From the NCBI GenBank assembly GCA_005888735.1, contig VBBN01000037.1, positions 1 to 64,000 on the forward strand: a stretch of 64,000 bases of DNA, in the 5' to 3' direction. Origin of the DNA: Candidatus Bathyarchaeota archaeon (GTDB lineage Archaea; Thermoproteota; Bathyarchaeia; 40CM-2-53-6). Below are positions 49,775-60,065 of the stretch, piece by piece; the first letter of the stretch is position 1; every line of letters starts with the position of its first letter. Under the pieces are notes generated by a model. It searched no databases. It was not told the origin of the DNA and worked only from the letters and a program-made list of their open reading frames with translations. The translations under genes and the position numbers were made by a program.

Positions 49775-50281
49775 TTAGGGCGAGTGAGGTCCGATGGACA
49801 AGGGGAGCTTGCTACTCATGAGATATGCGTCGGCCCCGTCATGGTAGTAGTGTGAAACTACTCGAATGGTGTCAAAGTTCAGTTGCTTGTATAGAGCGAC
49901 GGCTTCCTCATTCCCTGTTCTAACCTCAAGGAAGCATTCTTCGGCTCCGTGCAGCTCCAGTGCTTTCAGCGACGAGACAACCAGCTCGCGCCCGATTCCG
50001 TGTCGACGCTGATCGGGTACAACTGCGACAGAGACGATGTGCCCCTTGCGGAGCATTCTGAAACGGCGGACATCAGAGAAGCCGAACTCGAGACGGCACA
50101 TGATGTAGCCGACAACCTTCCGGTCGACCTCGGCGACGATAAACGCCTCGGGACAGCTCTTGTAAACTTCCATGAAAAAGTAAGGGCTGTAGTTTTCAGG
50201 CAAACAGACCCGGTTGATCTCGATTACGAGAGCAAGGTCATCTGGCCGAAATGGCCGTAAGAGGTAGGGTGCCTCCAGCAA
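49775..50281 (-). CDS. RimI-like N-terminal acetyltransferase
   Basis: 'VSVAVVPDQRRHGIGRELVVSSLKAL...FLEVRTGNEEAVALYKQLNF'. Confidence 0.85.
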   Translation of the reverse strand: MLEAPYLLRPFRPDDLALVIEINRVCLPENYSPYFFMEVYKSCPEAFIVAEVDRKVVGYIMCRLEFGFSDVRRFRMLRKGHIVSVAVVPDQRRHGIGRELVVSSLKALELHGAEECFLEVRTGNEEAVALYKQLNFDTIRVVSHYYHDGADAYLMSSKLPLSIGPHSP

Positions 50282-50372
50282 CTCGAGCCCTTGCCAAGAA
50301 GCAGGAATCCACTAGTGTATAATATCTTCTCGCCGGTCTCAAGATGATTTACGATGTGACAACACGTTTAAA

Positions 50373-51536
50373 TTGGCAATAAAGGCTCGCGAGCCGCAAA
50401 CGGCGTCCGACAAAATGAGCGACTCTCCACCGATAGCGACGCCTCCAGCGCCGACTCCGCAACCGGTCACGCAAACAACATTCACAGTCTACACCGGCCC
50501 GCCTCTCGACACGATACGTTCGCTGGTCGCCTCACAGTTCCAGGTAAAAGACGCGTTTCTCGACCGCCGCGGAACCTCCGAGGGAGAAGTTCAAGATGAT
50601 TTTAGGCGATCTTGGGAAACAAGGCCTTATCGCAGCACTTCGAGGTACTGGCGACACTCTAACCCTGAAGGTTTTCCAGAAGCCGCACCTGAAGCCACCT
50701 CGGCGAGAAATTAATCTTGGACTTTTCTTTGCTACTGTCGCGACAGTATTCGTGGCAGGCTATCTCATCTGGATGGCTCAAGCCCAGAGCACGATAACCC
50801 AGCTATTCGAACCTACAGCCAATCCATTCGTTAAGGCAGGAATGTTTGCCACCGGGCTTCTCTCGATTATTGGCTTGCACGAGTTCGGGCACAAGTCGGC
50901 GGCGATACATCACAAAATGGATGCGACGCTTCCATACTTCATTCCGGGTCCGCCCCCGATCGGAACGTTTGGGGCTCTGATCTCCCTTCGAGGACCCCCG
51001 GCTAATAGGGACCAGTTATTCGACTTGGGCCTGAGTGGCCCGGTGATCGGGTTCATTGTGACTATTATTGTCGGAATACTGCAAGTGCCAACGGAGGCTC
51101 GGCGATCGACTTCTCCTCATGGCCATCTCAGCCACTGATCCTTATCCTTACATCGTTTCTAGGCGGGGTCCTTCGACCGGGAACAAACGGCTCGATACTT
51201 CTGGACGGACAGCTGCTCTTCGCAGCCCAAATCGGTTCTTTGCTCACCTTCCTGAACATTGTGCCCGCGTGGCAACTGGACGGTGGACACATTTCCAGAG
51301 CTGTATTTGGGCAGAGCGGCCACAGATTCGCAACCGTCATCGGTCTAATACTCCTCCTCGCCGCGGGATACTGGACGTTTGCCATACTGGTCCTCATCAT
51401 GATGAGCTTTTCTCGACGCGGGTTCGCCGGAGTAGAACCGCTTGACGATGTGAGCTCGGTGAGCAACTTGAGAAAGGTGGTCTACCTTCTTTCGCTTGTG
51501 ATGCTCGTTCTCACTTTTGCGTTTTCTCCGTTGTAA
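50373..51536 (+). CDS. M50 (site-2-type) intramembrane metalloprotease, apparently split by two frame breaks
   Basis: 'GLHEFGHKSAAIHHKMDATLPYFIPGPPPIGTFGALI' in one frame, 'LTFLNIVPAWQLDGGHISRAVFG' in another. Confidence 0.8.
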
Positions 51537-51547
51537 GAGACTACGCA

Positions 51548-52255
51548 TTGACGACCAGAGAGGTTGTGGCCCGGGTCCTAGTCGAGACGTTGAAGCTGAC
51601 TCGGAACGCGGAAACGGTTAAGCTCAACAGCGTTGCGGTAAAGGCTCGAGTCTCACAGGAGACTGTTGTCAACGTGCTATCTGACATCCTTCAGACCGTT
51701 GATCATCCTCTGGTTCGAATCTCGCGCCGAGACCATTTTCGAATTGCGATGCTTGCTGCAGAAAGTGGATGGTTGGACTCCACGGCTGTGGGGCTTTCCT
51801 GGCAGGAATTCGAACAATTCGCAGAAGAGTGTCTTCGGCTGGCAGGGTTTGAGACTAAACGGAACGTGAGGGTCAAGGACCAGAAGAGATTCTGGCAAAT
51901 AGATGTCGTAGGGACGAGGTCACGCCTTGTGTTGTCCATTGACTGCAAGCACTGGAAACCACCCAACTACCCATCGAAGTTCAAACAAGCATCAGCACAC
52001 CAAAAGACTGCCACCACGAAGCTTCTTTCCCAGAAAGAGCACGGTACAGAGAACGTGATCGGGCTGCCGGTCATCCTGACTCTTCACGATCCTCACCTCG
52101 ACATCGTTGACGGGACTGTGATGCTGCCTATCCGAAAACTACCCGACTTTTTGTCCAATATTACTCCCTTCGCACAAGGCCTCCCGTTCCTCTACGGAGG
52201 AACGGACAAGATGGAAAACCCTATCAAAGCAGCGTCCTTGACACTTGGAGATTGA
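51548..52255 (+). CDS. Mrr/restriction-endonuclease-like (PD-(D/E)xK) protein with HTH-like N-terminus
   Basis: 'WQEFEQFAEECLRLAGFETKRNV...FWQIDVVGTRSRLVLSIDCKHW'. Confidence 0.65.
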   Translation: MTTREVVARVLVETLKLTRNAETVKLNSVAVKARVSQETVVNVLSDILQTVDHPLVRISRRDHFRIAMLAAESGWLDSTAVGLSWQEFEQFAEECLRLAGFETKRNVRVKDQKRFWQIDVVGTRSRLVLSIDCKHWKPPNYPSKFKQASAHQKTATTKLLSQKEHGTENVIGLPVILTLHDPHLDIVDGTVMLPIRKLPDFLSNITPFAQGLPFLYGGTDKMENPIKAASLTLGD

Positions 52256-54539: not shown

Positions 54540-55388
54540 TTGAAAACTACGAAGGGCGTCCTAGTTGTCCTAGTCGCCGTTCTAGCAACAATCTTCTTTC
54601 AACCCGGGTATTCTATTCTTAGTCCTCAAGAATTCGCGATTCTCAACAGTGGAGACAAGCTCGTCATACTATCGGACCAGTCTTCCATCCAAACTGTCGT
54701 GGTGAGAGGTAACCTAACCGCCGCCTCGTGGTCGAAGGCTTACTTCTCGAGGAACTTCACGCTGACGTCAAACTCGACAAGCACCTACACGTTAAACATC
54801 TGGTCATCCTATCCTGGCCCCTACACGACCTCGGTGAACGTGAGAGATCACGTGCGAGGCTCCTCTAGCCAAGTTGCGTCATACTTCGTGTCGGGAGGAG
54901 ACCTAAACCTCACCGTACTGGCGACGTTCCAGGCTCCCGGTCCGGGCTCAGATGGATCGCTGGGACTTCCATCTTTCTACGAGTGGGTGTCACAGTTCGG
55001 GGGCGCGTTTCCTGTCTGGGTCAAGCTTCTCTACCTTGTGCTAGGGGTCCAGTTCGCATTTGTTGGGTTCAACTGGGTCAAGTTCGAGGACGAGCGGCGA
55101 CGAATTGAAGGTCACTTGCCGCCTCTCGACTTGGGGAACAAGATCTACCTGTGGACAGACGTGGCGTTCAGAGCGCTTCTGGTCGGGTTCGCTATTAGCC
55201 TCTCAGTGATGGTGGGAGAGGCCTTGATCGTAGGCCTGGCGCAATACCTCTTTCTCGTTAATTTAACAATAGTTCCCCTTCTTGATTTCTTCTCGCTTTT
55301 CTTCTTCGCAGTGGTCGCCGCCCTTGTCTATTTGGCCCGTGAGGGAATGGATCGACTGCTCGATTTGAAACCGATAATGGAGGACTAG
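54540..55388 (+). CDS. Membrane protein: signal/anchor, extracytoplasmic beta-rich domain, three to four C-terminal TM helices
   Basis: 'VLVVLVAVLATIFFQPGYS' N-terminus; 'LLYLVLGVQFAFVGF', 'LLVGFAISLSVMVGEALIVGL', 'LLDFFSLFFFAVVAALVYLA'. Confidence 0.7.
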   Translation: MKTTKGVLVVLVAVLATIFFQPGYSILSPQEFAILNSGDKLVILSDQSSIQTVVVRGNLTAASWSKAYFSRNFTLTSNSTSTYTLNIWSSYPGPYTTSVNVRDHVRGSSSQVASYFVSGGDLNLTVLATFQAPGPGSDGSLGLPSFYEWVSQFGGAFPVWVKLLYLVLGVQFAFVGFNWVKFEDERRRIEGHLPPLDLGNKIYLWTDVAFRALLVGFAISLSVMVGEALIVGLAQYLFLVNLTIVPLLDFFSLFFFAVVAALVYLAREGMDRLLDLKPIMED

Positions 55389-55482
55389 AAAGACGCCGAA
55401 CAAACTGAGGGTCGCCTCGAACGACGATCAGCTTTCGGAGTTTCTCTTTGGATCTGTAAGGCCATGGTGGGACCGCCACTCA

Positions 55483-58188
55483 TTGTTGAGAAAGATGCTC
55501 TATCTACCGCTTAGAACAGTGGACAAGTCTTACGGTCGGTGGAGCAAGGCAAGGGTCTCGCCTAGAAGGTTCCGGAAGATTCAGGAGAGGCTGGACAGGG
55601 AGTATCCTCCAGACAAGTTTTCCCCCTCGAACCTAATTGGACGGGACAAGGAGTTCAACCTCCTTCTCGATTCGTTCAGGTTGCACGTCTTGCGCCATCC
55701 GATTCTTACTAAATACTTTGGCAGAGAAGAGCTTCCCAAAGCCGTCTGCCTCGCGGGTGACAGTGGAACAGGCAAGACGTTCCTGACCATGGTCGGACTT
55801 CGGGAGATGTTACTGGAGGGGTTCAGGAGCGGGGTCCTAGTGACACCGGTCATCCTCAAAGGCTCTGATGTCTACTCCGAGTTCTACGGGAAGAGTACAA
55901 GGCAGCTTGGAAGGTTCCTGGACTACGCCAGCTCTGTCCCGTCGGTGGTGTATATTGATGAGTTTCAGAGTTTCGGTCGCAAGGTCAAAGGGGAGACGGG
56001 GGCAGAAATCGAAGATACCAGGTTGCAGGATGAGCTGAACAGGTGGCTTGACAAGATTGTAAGCGGGAAATCTCGGACCCTGGTCATTGTCGCAACGAAC
56101 GCGTACGAGAAGATTCGAGAAGACATCCGGCGCAGGTTGACCAAAGTTAGTCTCAACGACGGCATAACACGCGAAATGCTTCTTGCTGTTGTCAACGATT
56201 TTCTCAAGCGGGAAGGATGGACCAATATCAAAGGAGAAGACCTACTCGATCTTCTGGAGAGAGAGGTCACAATCCGCCGTCGAAGCTCGCTGACCCCAAG
56301 CGACATCCAGGAGATATTTCGAGAGGTCCGGAAGACAAAGGAGGCTCCGTTCAGGGAGAGGTTCCGAGACCCCAAGTCGACTCTCAAAGACTTCGAGAAG
56401 CCGAAACTCACCGCCATCATCGATGACTTCGTCACGGCAGCGCGCACTATGAAGTTCTACTCTGAACAGGAAAAGTCCCAGGAGATTACGGACGCCGTCT
56501 ACGTGATGAAGCCCAAGGTCTCCCGAGACGACATTGGGGGACTGCACGACTTGAAGCATAAGATTCTGAACCATGTCGCGCTAGCATTCAACCCCTCGAT
56601 GGCCGAGTTGGGCCACGAGTCCAACCCGCGCTTCTTCCTCCTGGGACCCCCAGGAACAGGGAAGACGTTGATGGCGATGGTAGCAGCCGCCGAGAACAGT
56701 GCAGGTTTCATCAAAGTCAGAGGCGGCGAATTGATGAGCGGAGCAAGTTACATGGGAGACCCGGAGAAGCGCATCAAGGAACTCTTCGCCCTCGTCCGAC
56801 AGAAGAGCCCGTGCATACTACTCCTAGACGAGGCGGATGCGATATTCTGGGGCGCAGACCCGACAAGCAACAAGATTCTCGCACAGGTCAAAGCCGAGCT
56901 GAGTGAACTCCGGCCCGAGGACAGGGTTGTTGTGATCGCCACGTCTAACAAGGAACAGCTCATCGACCAGGCTACACGTGATCGTTTCGAACCGAATATA
57001 TTCTACGTTCATGCACCGTTGAACGATAGCGAGTGGAACGAGGTGGTTGGGATCCATCTGAGAAAATTCCAGCGATTCCTTCACCCTGAGGTCGAGTCTC
57101 CTAAGATAACCAAGATGTTCCGTCGAGAGAGGATTCTCAGCCCGAGAGGGGCAGCGGAGACCGTTGCGGAAGCGCACCGGCTGTGGGCGTCGGAGGTGGC
57201 GGCTGCGAGGGAGATTACTAAGGCTCTGGGAAAAGTGGAGGCTGACCTGCAAGTCCACACGAAGTACCAGGAGGACCTTGACAGACTGGACTTGATGCTT
57301 TCGGCCTACACGCAAGAAGGAATCAACCTCACGCGAGACATCGTGGGCCAGGACAATTACAAGATACGACTCTTCCACTTCGAACGTGCGATATCCAGTT
57401 TGGAGTCGCTCGAGGACAAGGAACACCGGGAGATTGCCGAGGCCTTGATTCTGCCACAAGCGACTGCCGGAGTGACCTACGGCTTATACACAAGTGACCG
57501 TGGAAGCGGAGGAATATTGACGATACAGTGCACTGTCCGCCCCTTAAGCCAAGGGGAGAAGAATGTCTCTGTCACCGGGCAGGCGAGCTCCATGATGATG
57601 GGACAGTCATTTGTCCCAGATGATAGTGTTGTTCAGAGTGCCGAAAACGCTGTGGAAGCGGCTAGATCATGGCTATGGTCTAGGACAAGGGTCAACCTCG
57701 CAAAATTCCATATCCACTTCCAGATCAGAAGTATCCTAGAAGGCGCGCCTGGACAGGGAGTCTCGGGTCCGAGCGCTGGTTACGCGATGCTTAACGCGCT
57801 TGTCTCAGAACTCTCGAACATTCCAGTGTCCCTGTCCAAAGTGATGACAGGAACCATTGGGCTGAAGATGGATGTCGGACCGGTCGGCGGACTTGGGGGC
57901 AGGGGGCGTGAGGCGGGGAAGTTGGTGGGGATGCTGAAGGCGGAAAAGGTGAAGATAACGGATATTCTGGTCCCCTATGCCAATTTCAAGAATGCCACCG
58001 ACGAGATGAAGGTGGTCCAGGACGAGGGCATCAATGTGCACCCGATAACGAATGCCCATGAGGGCTGGCCGGTACTGTTCTCGTTGAACTCCGAGGAGCT
58101 AGCGAAGAAGATTCGAGCGGCTTTGATCGAGAGGGAGTCGCTTGTCGATGTCGAGTCTACTGCCGCACGGTTTGTAAAAAGTTCCTGA
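55483..58188 (+). CDS. Double AAA+ ATPase fused to Lon (S16) protease domain, catalytic Lys position is Arg
   Basis: D1 Walker A 'GDSGTGKT', B 'VVYIDEF'; D2 Walker A 'GPPGTGKT', B 'ILLLDEAD', 'RDRFEP'; LonC 'SGPSAGYAMLNALVSEL...VMTGTIGLKMDVGPVGGLGGRGREAGKL'. Confidence 0.9.
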   Translation: MLRKMLYLPLRTVDKSYGRWSKARVSPRRFRKIQERLDREYPPDKFSPSNLIGRDKEFNLLLDSFRLHVLRHPILTKYFGREELPKAVCLAGDSGTGKTFLTMVGLREMLLEGFRSGVLVTPVILKGSDVYSEFYGKSTRQLGRFLDYASSVPSVVYIDEFQSFGRKVKGETGAEIEDTRLQDELNRWLDKIVSGKSRTLVIVATNAYEKIREDIRRRLTKVSLNDGITREMLLAVVNDFLKREGWTNIKGEDLLDLLEREVTIRRRSSLTPSDIQEIFREVRKTKEAPFRERFRDPKSTLKDFEKPKLTAIIDDFVTAARTMKFYSEQEKSQEITDAVYVMKPKVSRDDIGGLHDLKHKILNHVALAFNPSMAELGHESNPRFFLLGPPGTGKTLMAMVAAAENSAGFIKVRGGELMSGASYMGDPEKRIKELFALVRQKSPCILLLDEADAIFWGADPTSNKILAQVKAELSELRPEDRVVVIATSNKEQLIDQATRDRFEPNIFYVHAPLNDSEWNEVVGIHLRKFQRFLHPEVESPKITKMFRRERILSPRGAAETVAEAHRLWASEVAAAREITKALGKVEADLQVHTKYQEDLDRLDLMLSAYTQEGINLTRDIVGQDNYKIRLFHFERAISSLESLEDKEHREIAEALILPQATAGVTYGLYTSDRGSGGILTIQCTVRPLSQGEKNVSVTGQASSMMMGQSFVPDDSVVQSAENAVEAARSWLWSRTRVNLAKFHIHFQIRSILEGAPGQGVSGPSAGYAMLNALVSELSNIPVSLSKVMTGTIGLKMDVGPVGGLGGRGREAGKLVGMLKAEKVKITDILVPYANFKNATDEMKVVQDEGINVHPITNAHEGWPVLFSLNSEELAKKIRAALIERESLVDVESTAARFVKSS

Positions 58189-58741
58189 AAATCTCAGAGC
58201 CCTTGGAGGTATGAGAGACTTCAGGGTGGAACTGGACCCCGAAGATTCTCCCATTTTCATGCCGCATCGCTTGTGCCGTGCAGTTGTCAGAATGAGCGAG
58301 GAGGTGGAAGCCGGGCGGTGATTTCACGACCTCGTCGGTGTGCGACTCCCACGCTGTGAAGGATGGACCGACGCCAGTGAGAATGGTGTCCTCACTGTCC
58401 ACGGATATTTCGACGGGGCCGTATTCGGGCTTCTTGGCAATATCAGTCTCGCCGCCGAAAGCCTTCGCCAGTAACTGGTGAGTAACGCAGATGCAGAGCA
58501 TCGGCAGAGTGACCCCCCTGATTAGCTGGACGGCGTCGGCGAGTTCCCTTGGCAGGTTTTCTAGCTGTCGGACGCTTTGCGGGCCTCCGCCCATGACCAA
58601 CCCGTCAGCCTTCAATCTCTCCAACTCCTCGGGAGTGGTCGAGGATGGAAGGAGTTTGGACTCGATGCCGAGGTCTTGGAGAGACCTGGTTATCAGGTGG
58701 TTGTATTGCCCTTTGACGTAGACGACGGGAACGAAGGTCAT
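58157..58741 (-). CDS. guaAA: GMP synthase glutaminase subunit
   Basis: 'LVMGGGPQSV', 'MLCICVTHQLLAKAFGG', 'IFGVQFHPEVSHTSKG'. Confidence 0.9.
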   Translation of the reverse strand: MTFVPVVYVKGQYNHLITRSLQDLGIESKLLPSSTTPEELERLKADGLVMGGGPQSVRQLENLPRELADAVQLIRGVTLPMLCICVTHQLLAKAFGGETDIAKKPEYGPVEISVDSEDTILTGVGPSFTAWESHTDEVVKSPPGFHLLAHSDNCTAQAMRHENGRIFGVQFHPEVSHTSKGSEIFRNFLQTVRQ

Positions 58742-58742
58742 C

Positions 58743-60065
58743 TCATTCGAACTCGACTGTCCCGGGTGGTTTTGGCGTTATGTCGTAGTAGACCCGGCTT
58801 ACGTCTTCGATGTCGAGGATGGAGTCTGCAATGTCCTTCAGGACTTTCCATGGAACCTTGGCGACGGCCGCAGTCATGAAATCCCGTGTTGTGACAGCGC
58901 GGATTACGACGGAGAGCGAGCCTCCCCCTCTCTTTTCCTTCACGAGAAATGCGACTCTTGTCAAGTCTTGGGATTTCTCGACCAACGCTGATTGTAATCT
59001 TCCCAGTTTGTCGGGGAGCCAACCGTACGCTTCTCTGCTCTCCTCGATGAGCTTGACCCCACAGAGCCGGCCATAGCTTCTCACGTCTCCTTTCACTCCT
59101 GTGACGCGCTGTTCGAAGACGTCGGTGCGAACTTCGTTAGTTGGAAGGCCAAGTGCCTCTGCGCTATTGTCGCGAAGGGCCTTGAATGTGGGATCTGACG
59201 AGAAATCGTTCTCGATTACGGCGGCAAAATACTGGTCGTAAGAGAGGGGTCCGAGCTTGTTCTCAACGAGCTGGGTGGCAGACTTGAGAACCTGAAGCTT
59301 AGTCTTGGTAACCGCGCCGATACAACGGACGAGGAGGCCTGGTCCCGGGAATGGTTGTCTTCCGGCAAGGTCTGGTGGAAGGTCGAGCTGTCGACCAACG
59401 CTGCGCACCTGGTCTTTGTAGAGATCCGCCAGAGGCTCTAGAACTTTGAAACCATAAGTGGCGACGGGGTCTATTCCCACCTGTTCCAGAACGTTGTGCT
59501 GGGTCTTGATTCCGCCCTGCGTTTCTATCCAGTCGGGGGCGATTGTTCCCTGGACGAGGAACTCACAGCCCTCTCTCGCGGCCTCGTCCTTGAGAACTTG
59601 GTAGAATGTCTCGCGAAACTTGTTTCTTTTCTCCTCAGCTAGAAAAGTGCCTTTCACAGCTTCCAAGAATCGTCCTCCTGCGTGGATGAGCCTGACCTTA
59701 ATTCCCAGAGGAGGCGAGGAGAGCTTGGCCCTGACCTTCTCAGGCTCATCTAACCTCATAAATCCTGTGTCTATCAGAACAGGGATTAGGTTGTCGCCGA
59801 GGGCTTGCTTGGCTAGAACAGTTGCGACGGTGCTGTCGACCCCACCTGATATTGCTGCAATGGCCTTTTTTCCAGAAGTGATTTCTCGTAGTTTGGCTGT
59901 CTGGGCCGATAAGAAGCTGGCCGGGTGGAAACCCTGGACCTGAGCCGACAACCATCCGCCACTTGGTATCGAGGCGGACCTGGACAATTTATTCTTTACC
60001 GATGGGTTCCCCGAATTTCTTGGTTCGCTGATTGGAGGGGTTGGGGACTTATCTGTGTTGACCAT
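58743..60065 (-). CDS. guaAB: GMP synthase ATP-pyrophosphatase subunit
   Basis: 'AAISGGVDSTVATVLA', 'FLVQGTIAPDWIET', 'QPFPGPGLLVRCIGAV'. Confidence 0.93.
   Translation of the reverse strand: MVNTDKSPTPPISEPRNSGNPSVKNKLSRSASIPSGGWLSAQVQGFHPASFLSAQTAKLREITSGKKAIAAISGGVDSTVATVLAKQALGDNLIPVLIDTGFMRLDEPEKVRAKLSSPPLGIKVRLIHAGGRFLEAVKGTFLAEEKRNKFRETFYQVLKDEAAREGCEFLVQGTIAPDWIETQGGIKTQHNVLEQVGIDPVATYGFKVLEPLADLYKDQVRSVGRQLDLPPDLAGRQPFPGPGLLVRCIGAVTKTKLQVLKSATQLVENKLGPLSYDQYFAAVIENDFSSDPTFKALRDNSAEALGLPTNEVRTDVFEQRVTGVKGDVRSYGRLCGVKLIEESREAYGWLPDKLGRLQSALVEKSQDLTRVAFLVKEKRGGGSLSVVIRAVTTRDFMTAAVAKVPWKVLKDIADSILDIEDVSRVYYDITPKPPGTVEFE

Follow-up and report, generated by a model that had tools for sequence, protein, structure and literature searches.

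What kind of machine is encoded by an archaeal gene in which two AAA+ modules appear to be followed by a Lon protease domain? The gene lies in a window (the whole stretch of DNA analysed here, 64,000 nucleotides) that is part of a 2.39 Mb Bathyarchaeota genome. The source organism is a soil Bathyarchaeota archaeon, and its named relatives are mostly Bathyarchaeota MAGs whose sample names suggest soil. An earlier sequence-only reading had seen a single polypeptide here, with a pair of AAA modules and, at its C-terminus, an S16 Lon domain. The features on which our account relies are the following, with residues numbered from the TTG at 55483 as residue 1:

54540..55388, + strand: membrane partner gene, 282 aa, with an N-terminal signal/TM segment, a predicted outside domain of ~150 residues and C-terminal TM segments
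55411..55482, + strand: conserved N-terminal extension, VASNDDQLSEFLFGSVRPWWDRHS, with two invariant Trp, recognised from orthologues and pN/pS; start codon uncertain
55483..58188, + strand: AAA-AAA-Lon protease ORF, 901 codons plus stop, with the TTG start as called in the sequence-only reading
55720..56142 (approximate bounds, residues 80-220), + strand: D1, first AAA module, with Walker A G92DSGTGK98T, pore loop Y135G136xS138, Walker B D159E160F161 and R216R217R218
56635..57003 (residues 385-507), + strand: D2, second AAA module, with Walker A G388PPGTGK394T, pore loop YMG425, Walker B D449E450, N489 and R501
57070..57456, + strand: region between the D2 core and Lon, predicted to be helical from the alignment and a low-confidence model
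57457..58056 (residues 659-858), + strand: S16 Lon protease domain, with Ser764 (GPSAG) and Lys813 (PVGGxxxRGxxxGK in the window)

Pfam detects each of the three domains independently, which bears out the proposed layout: AAA (PF00004) matches two stretches of the ORF product (whole-protein E 1.6e-44), and Lon_C (PF05362) covers residues 659-858 with an E of 3.4e-15, above the Pfam cut-off. The motifs sit where they had been seen, namely GDSGTGKT and VVYIDEF in D1, GPPGTGKT and ILLLDEAD in D2, and GPSAG in Lon. The proposal would have fallen had D1 not been an AAA+ module; scanned alone, D1 is PF00004 (E 2e-17), and the same family matched in 16/16 D1 homologues scanned. Cdc48/VCP-like ATPases are the best PDB matches of both D1 and D2 and no curated model covers the architecture as a whole, so that the description of the protein as an unusual layout, in which a double ATPase of Cdc48 style is joined to Lon, stands. 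No clear transmembrane segment is present in the protease's own sequence as read. An AlphaFold model, built from 12 close homologues only, reached a mean pLDDT of 40 and a pTM of 0.26, and because of this poor confidence we make no structural claim for the protease. The domain architecture is solid; the function is inferred.

Where does the protein begin? The frame is uninterrupted across 901 codons, from the TTG at 55483 to the stop at 58186-58188, and comparison with orthologues carries the conserved coding frame further upstream, by 24 codons or more beyond the called TTG (VASNDDQLSEFLFGSVRPWW...), conservation setting in near 55411 as (V/M)ASNDDQ(L/V)SEFLFGSVRPWW. Since pN/pS over the 24-codon extension is as low as 0.05-0.11 in comparison with four relatives, these codons are very probably translated. 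Judged by the conserved frame and its low pN/pS, the true N-terminus should lie at or just before 55411; the exact start codon remains uncertain. Many relatives have a start codon at or a few codons before the beginning of the extension, and no ATG, GTG or TTG was found in the extension stretch near 55411 of the window.

The search for homologues sharing all three domains, which the sequence-only reading had called for, covered one phylum (257 Bathyarchaeia and 325 other genomes), with no other archaeal phyla and no bacteria, and found the layout in several of its families and classes. A nine-sequence profile recovered homologues in 40/257 Bathyarchaeia genomes (families f1, to which the window belongs, f5, f9, f15 and f24) and in 27/325 sampled genomes of the other classes (f30, f32, f41, f43, f47, f49, f54 and f56). 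The tandem enzyme occurs in nearly all members of f1 and most of f15. Over the full length, identity stands at 77-83% within the same family, at 39% to a second family of its order and at 32% to one further family; in the Lon domain it falls to about 30%. The active sites are nevertheless invariant in all 47 full-length homologues: K98, D159, E160, Y135-G136-S138 and R216-R217-R218 in D1; K394, T395, G425, D449, E450, N489 and R501 in D2; Ser764, R807, G808, G812 and K813 in Lon. The pore loops, too, are present in every aligned sequence, as YG in D1 and as [YW]xG or YG in D2. Between species, the protease gene has a pN/pS of 0.14-0.18 and is under purifying selection.

These data bear directly on two less flattering accounts of the locus. 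The fusion might be an assembly artefact or a decaying pseudogene, as the MAG origin of the sequence and a frame-disrupted M50 gene nearby in the window could lead one to suspect; we give this practically no credence, since an identical layout in 47 full-length homologues from many assemblies, together with the low pN/pS, excludes chance and mis-assembly and refutes it. Some AAA and Lon-domain proteins belong to defence or mobile systems, and the tandem enzyme does give generic AAA matches to PADLOC models such as IetA. Those matches span one AAA module only, however, on which ground we rejected a defence system; likewise, plasmid and phage records gave partial AAA matches, none covering 80% of the query, and near-universal presence in f1, presence in most of f15 and clade-wise descent speak against this very improbable assignment.

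Could the Lon domain be catalytically competent? Membership of the S16 Lon superfamily, that is, Lon_C with a Ser-Lys dyad, is met by the PF05362 match, by the invariance of Ser764 and Lys813, and by the alignment of the lysine to that of Archaeoglobus fulgidus LonB (AfLonB). In this profile alignment the family's invariant lysine falls onto the AfLonB lysine with a 4-residue insert (PVGGlgyRGaGK versus PVGGVTQK); replacement of the catalytic lysine by Arg807, a first reading of GGLGGR, was rejected on the strength of the same family-to-AfLonB alignment. A proline before the catalytic serine is a mark of LonA, and in both LonA and LonB the catalytic serine and lysine stand exactly 42 residues apart (PMC9569914). 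The tandem enzyme does not meet this criterion, the residues between the two numbering 46 in 32/47 sequences and 48 in 15/47. The active centre, then, combines a LonA-like motif with a LonB-like profile and a spacing unlike both, and because of that spacing proteolytic activity is not guaranteed. The longer active-site loop relative to known Lon enzymes, along with the resemblance of both motors to Cdc48, a segregase, leaves room for a protein that works chiefly by unfolding or remodelling, extracting proteins, say, from the membrane or from complexes, with a slow, regulatory or structural Lon domain. We regard this as rather improbable: across 47 homologues neither Ser764 nor Lys813 varies, although Lon-domain identity falls to about 30%, which makes a dead protease unlikely.

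The second constant element of the locus is a neighbour. In every lineage examined with readable flanks, the protease gene is adjoined by a gene for a small membrane protein, usually upstream on the same strand and often overlapping by some 20-50 nt; in family f32 (L127, L128, L129, L130 and L131) it is adjacent but divergently oriented, and the linkage therefore survives without an operon. By a simple hydropathy count, the family's partners share an N-terminal hydrophobic segment, ~130-150 residues and two or three C-terminal TM segments; the window's own partner has no Pfam or PDB match. Partner sequences fall into two types, type A in f15, f24, f32, f41 and f43, and type B in f5, f9, f30, f49, f54 and, weakly, f1, whose partner resembles the other type B proteins with an hhalign probability of only 31%. 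The enzyme tree splits into two groups that match the partner types (support 100), the f1 branch being long. Co-occurrence is strict: the type A profile found its target in 18/18 carriers of the f15/f24 enzyme and in no other of the 257 genomes of the class, and the type B profile in 18/18 carriers of that type and in 0/31 enzyme-lacking genomes, among them five f30 members that have neither enzyme nor partner. Variations were also seen. In family f5 (L053 8824-9198; L054 5915-6319) the partner has lost the outside domain and kept only TM segments, and two genomes carry a second type A copy (G184:C1:32927-33667; G191:C1:113849-114538), one of them right beside the first.

The earlier proposal of a single-chain machine is incomplete, because the constant neighbour gene encodes a membrane protein. 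This points to a two-component, membrane-linked machine, binding between the components being inferred. Without interaction data, and with membrane segments confined to the neighbour, it remains conceivable, if unlikely, that the enzyme is an active double-ring AAA-Lon protease that is soluble and serves general cytoplasmic turnover; the membrane protein would then not anchor it, but be its substrate, its regulator or a partner in signalling. However, two dissimilar types of membrane protein that co-occur strictly with the enzyme and lie next to it across classes are more than a chance substrate would lead one to expect.

What, then, is the physiological role of this gene pair? With moderate confidence, we favour a double-ring, membrane-coupled AAA+ protease for quality control of the LonB/FtsH type. 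Two stacked classic-clade AAA rings of the Cdc48/VAT type, D1 and D2, would feed a covalently attached Lon-type serine-lysine chamber, the hexamer itself being an inference. The small multi-span membrane protein encoded next door would probably anchor or recruit the hexamer to the membrane and present substrates, presumed to be membrane or mislocalised proteins. Gripped in each ring by its aromatic-glycine pore loops, a substrate may be threaded from D1 through D2 into the Lon chamber and degraded there. In archaea that lack LonB, the tandem enzyme might in this way fill the role of membrane-bound LonB or FtsH. We consider this mechanism the most likely one on anatomical, genomic and evolutionary evidence; ATP-driven unfolding, threading, proteolysis, partner binding and a membrane quality-control role are all inferred in the absence of biochemical data.

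How does this proposal fit the distribution of the known enzymes? According to a review, the ATP-dependent proteases of archaea are the proteasome and membrane LonB only, and LonB probably functions like FtsH, which is absent from archaea (PMC4343526). Canonical LonB, counted at E below 1e-55, occurs in 80/257 genomes of the class and the tandem enzyme in 40/257, with zero overlap where 12.5 genomes would be expected (Fisher P 7e-8 at genome level); carriers within the class are thus without canonical LonB. The genome-level P should not be taken at face value, because both enzymes are clustered by family, and at family level the chance of zero overlap is about 0.19. Replacement of LonB is consequently suggested, not shown. 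Both enzymes are missing in some lineages, and therefore neither is strictly required. FtsH M41 is missing from each of 38 genomes examined, whereas it was matched in ten control genomes. A LonC/AAA_32-type protein (E about 1e-44) stands alongside the tandem enzyme in f1, and the window's genome likewise encodes a separate LonC-like protein, in which AAA_32, LonB_AAA-LID and LonC_helical domains were recognised (G000:C62:157256-158599; 814-residue frame).

Several other genes surround the locus. Genes for a GNAT acetyltransferase and an M50 site-2 protease, another membrane protease in this neighbourhood, occupy 49775-51536 of the window, about 4 kb from the AAA-AAA-Lon gene; in family f5 the pair adjoins that gene (L053 4344-6105; L054 9044-10809). 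The window's M50 homologue (50328-51533, + strand) is split across frames, with three tblastn pieces in two frames, and an intact relative of 432 residues is found at L060 12493-13791. The product of 51548-52255 (+ strand) is small and carries an Mrr_cat restriction-endonuclease-like domain; a similar-sized gene takes the same place in relatives. Beside the protease gene, GMP synthase is apparently encoded, to judge from the translations, by two adjacent genes for amidotransferase and synthetase (58157-58741 and 58743-60065, - strand).

Is the enzyme new? The sequence-only reading would have lost its point had a well-described family with this exact architecture come to light. None did: among the curated models of Pfam, NCBIfam and PADLOC there is not one that spans all of it, and nothing on an AAA-AAA-Lon layout was found in the open-access literature, subscription papers and preprints lying outside the search. 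Among AAA+ proteases its combination of domains is new, and it comes with a dedicated partner. We lean, if only slightly, towards an undescribed third class of archaeal ATP-dependent protease, in which a tandem Cdc48-type motor is joined to Lon, has a dedicated, co-diverged membrane partner of two types and replaces membrane LonB in several lineages of the phylum. If true, this conserved, vertically inherited double-motor Lon would take its place beside the proteasome and LonB (PMC4343526), could explain how membrane proteins are cleared in lineages without LonB and FtsH, and would allow a test of what a second motor ring contributes to a single-chain Lon protease.

Compared to systems that are already well described, the tandem enzyme shares something with each and coincides with none. 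With Cdc48/VAT/p97 (TIGR01243) it has tandem classic AAA modules in common, PF00004 being matched twice in the ORF product, yet Cdc48/VAT has an N domain and no protease domain where the ORF product has Lon, and the model gives 146 bits, far under the family cut-off of 803. In LonA and LonB one Lon-type AAA module stands immediately ahead of the protease domain, but the tandem enzyme has two modules, both Cdc48-like; in line with this, the best stretches of the NCBIfam Lon models fall in the protease region only, with scores far below the cut-offs. LonA (TIGR00763; protease part only, 58.7 bits in all, cut-off 608) shares the GPSAG motif with its proline before the serine, but has one AAA module and a long N-terminal region, unlike the tandem enzyme. 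The LonC/AAA_32 LonB-like protein, too, has one AAA module, with AAA_32, LonB_AAA-LID and LonC_helical domains. FtsH and YME1L also couple a classic-clade AAA motor covalently to a protease and work at the membrane with membrane partners; FtsH, however, has one AAA module, an M41 zinc protease and its own TM segments, and the tandem enzyme differs in all of these. Archaeal LonB (TIGR00764; MEROPS S16, B type) belongs to the same protease-domain superfamily, and that of A. fulgidus is the closest solved protease domain to the tandem enzyme's Lon, although the model scores 32.9 bits (cut-off 516.6), in the protease part only. LonB carries one Lon-type AAA module with an inserted membrane anchor and a B-type serine motif, whereas the tandem enzyme has two Cdc48-type modules, no LonB-like hydrophobic insert in an AAA module as far as the family alignment goes, a GPS serine motif with longer Ser-Lys spacing, and a membrane protein that is encoded separately. 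For all these differences, the niche proposed for LonB and the tandem enzyme is the same, namely membrane-linked ATP-dependent proteolysis in archaea.
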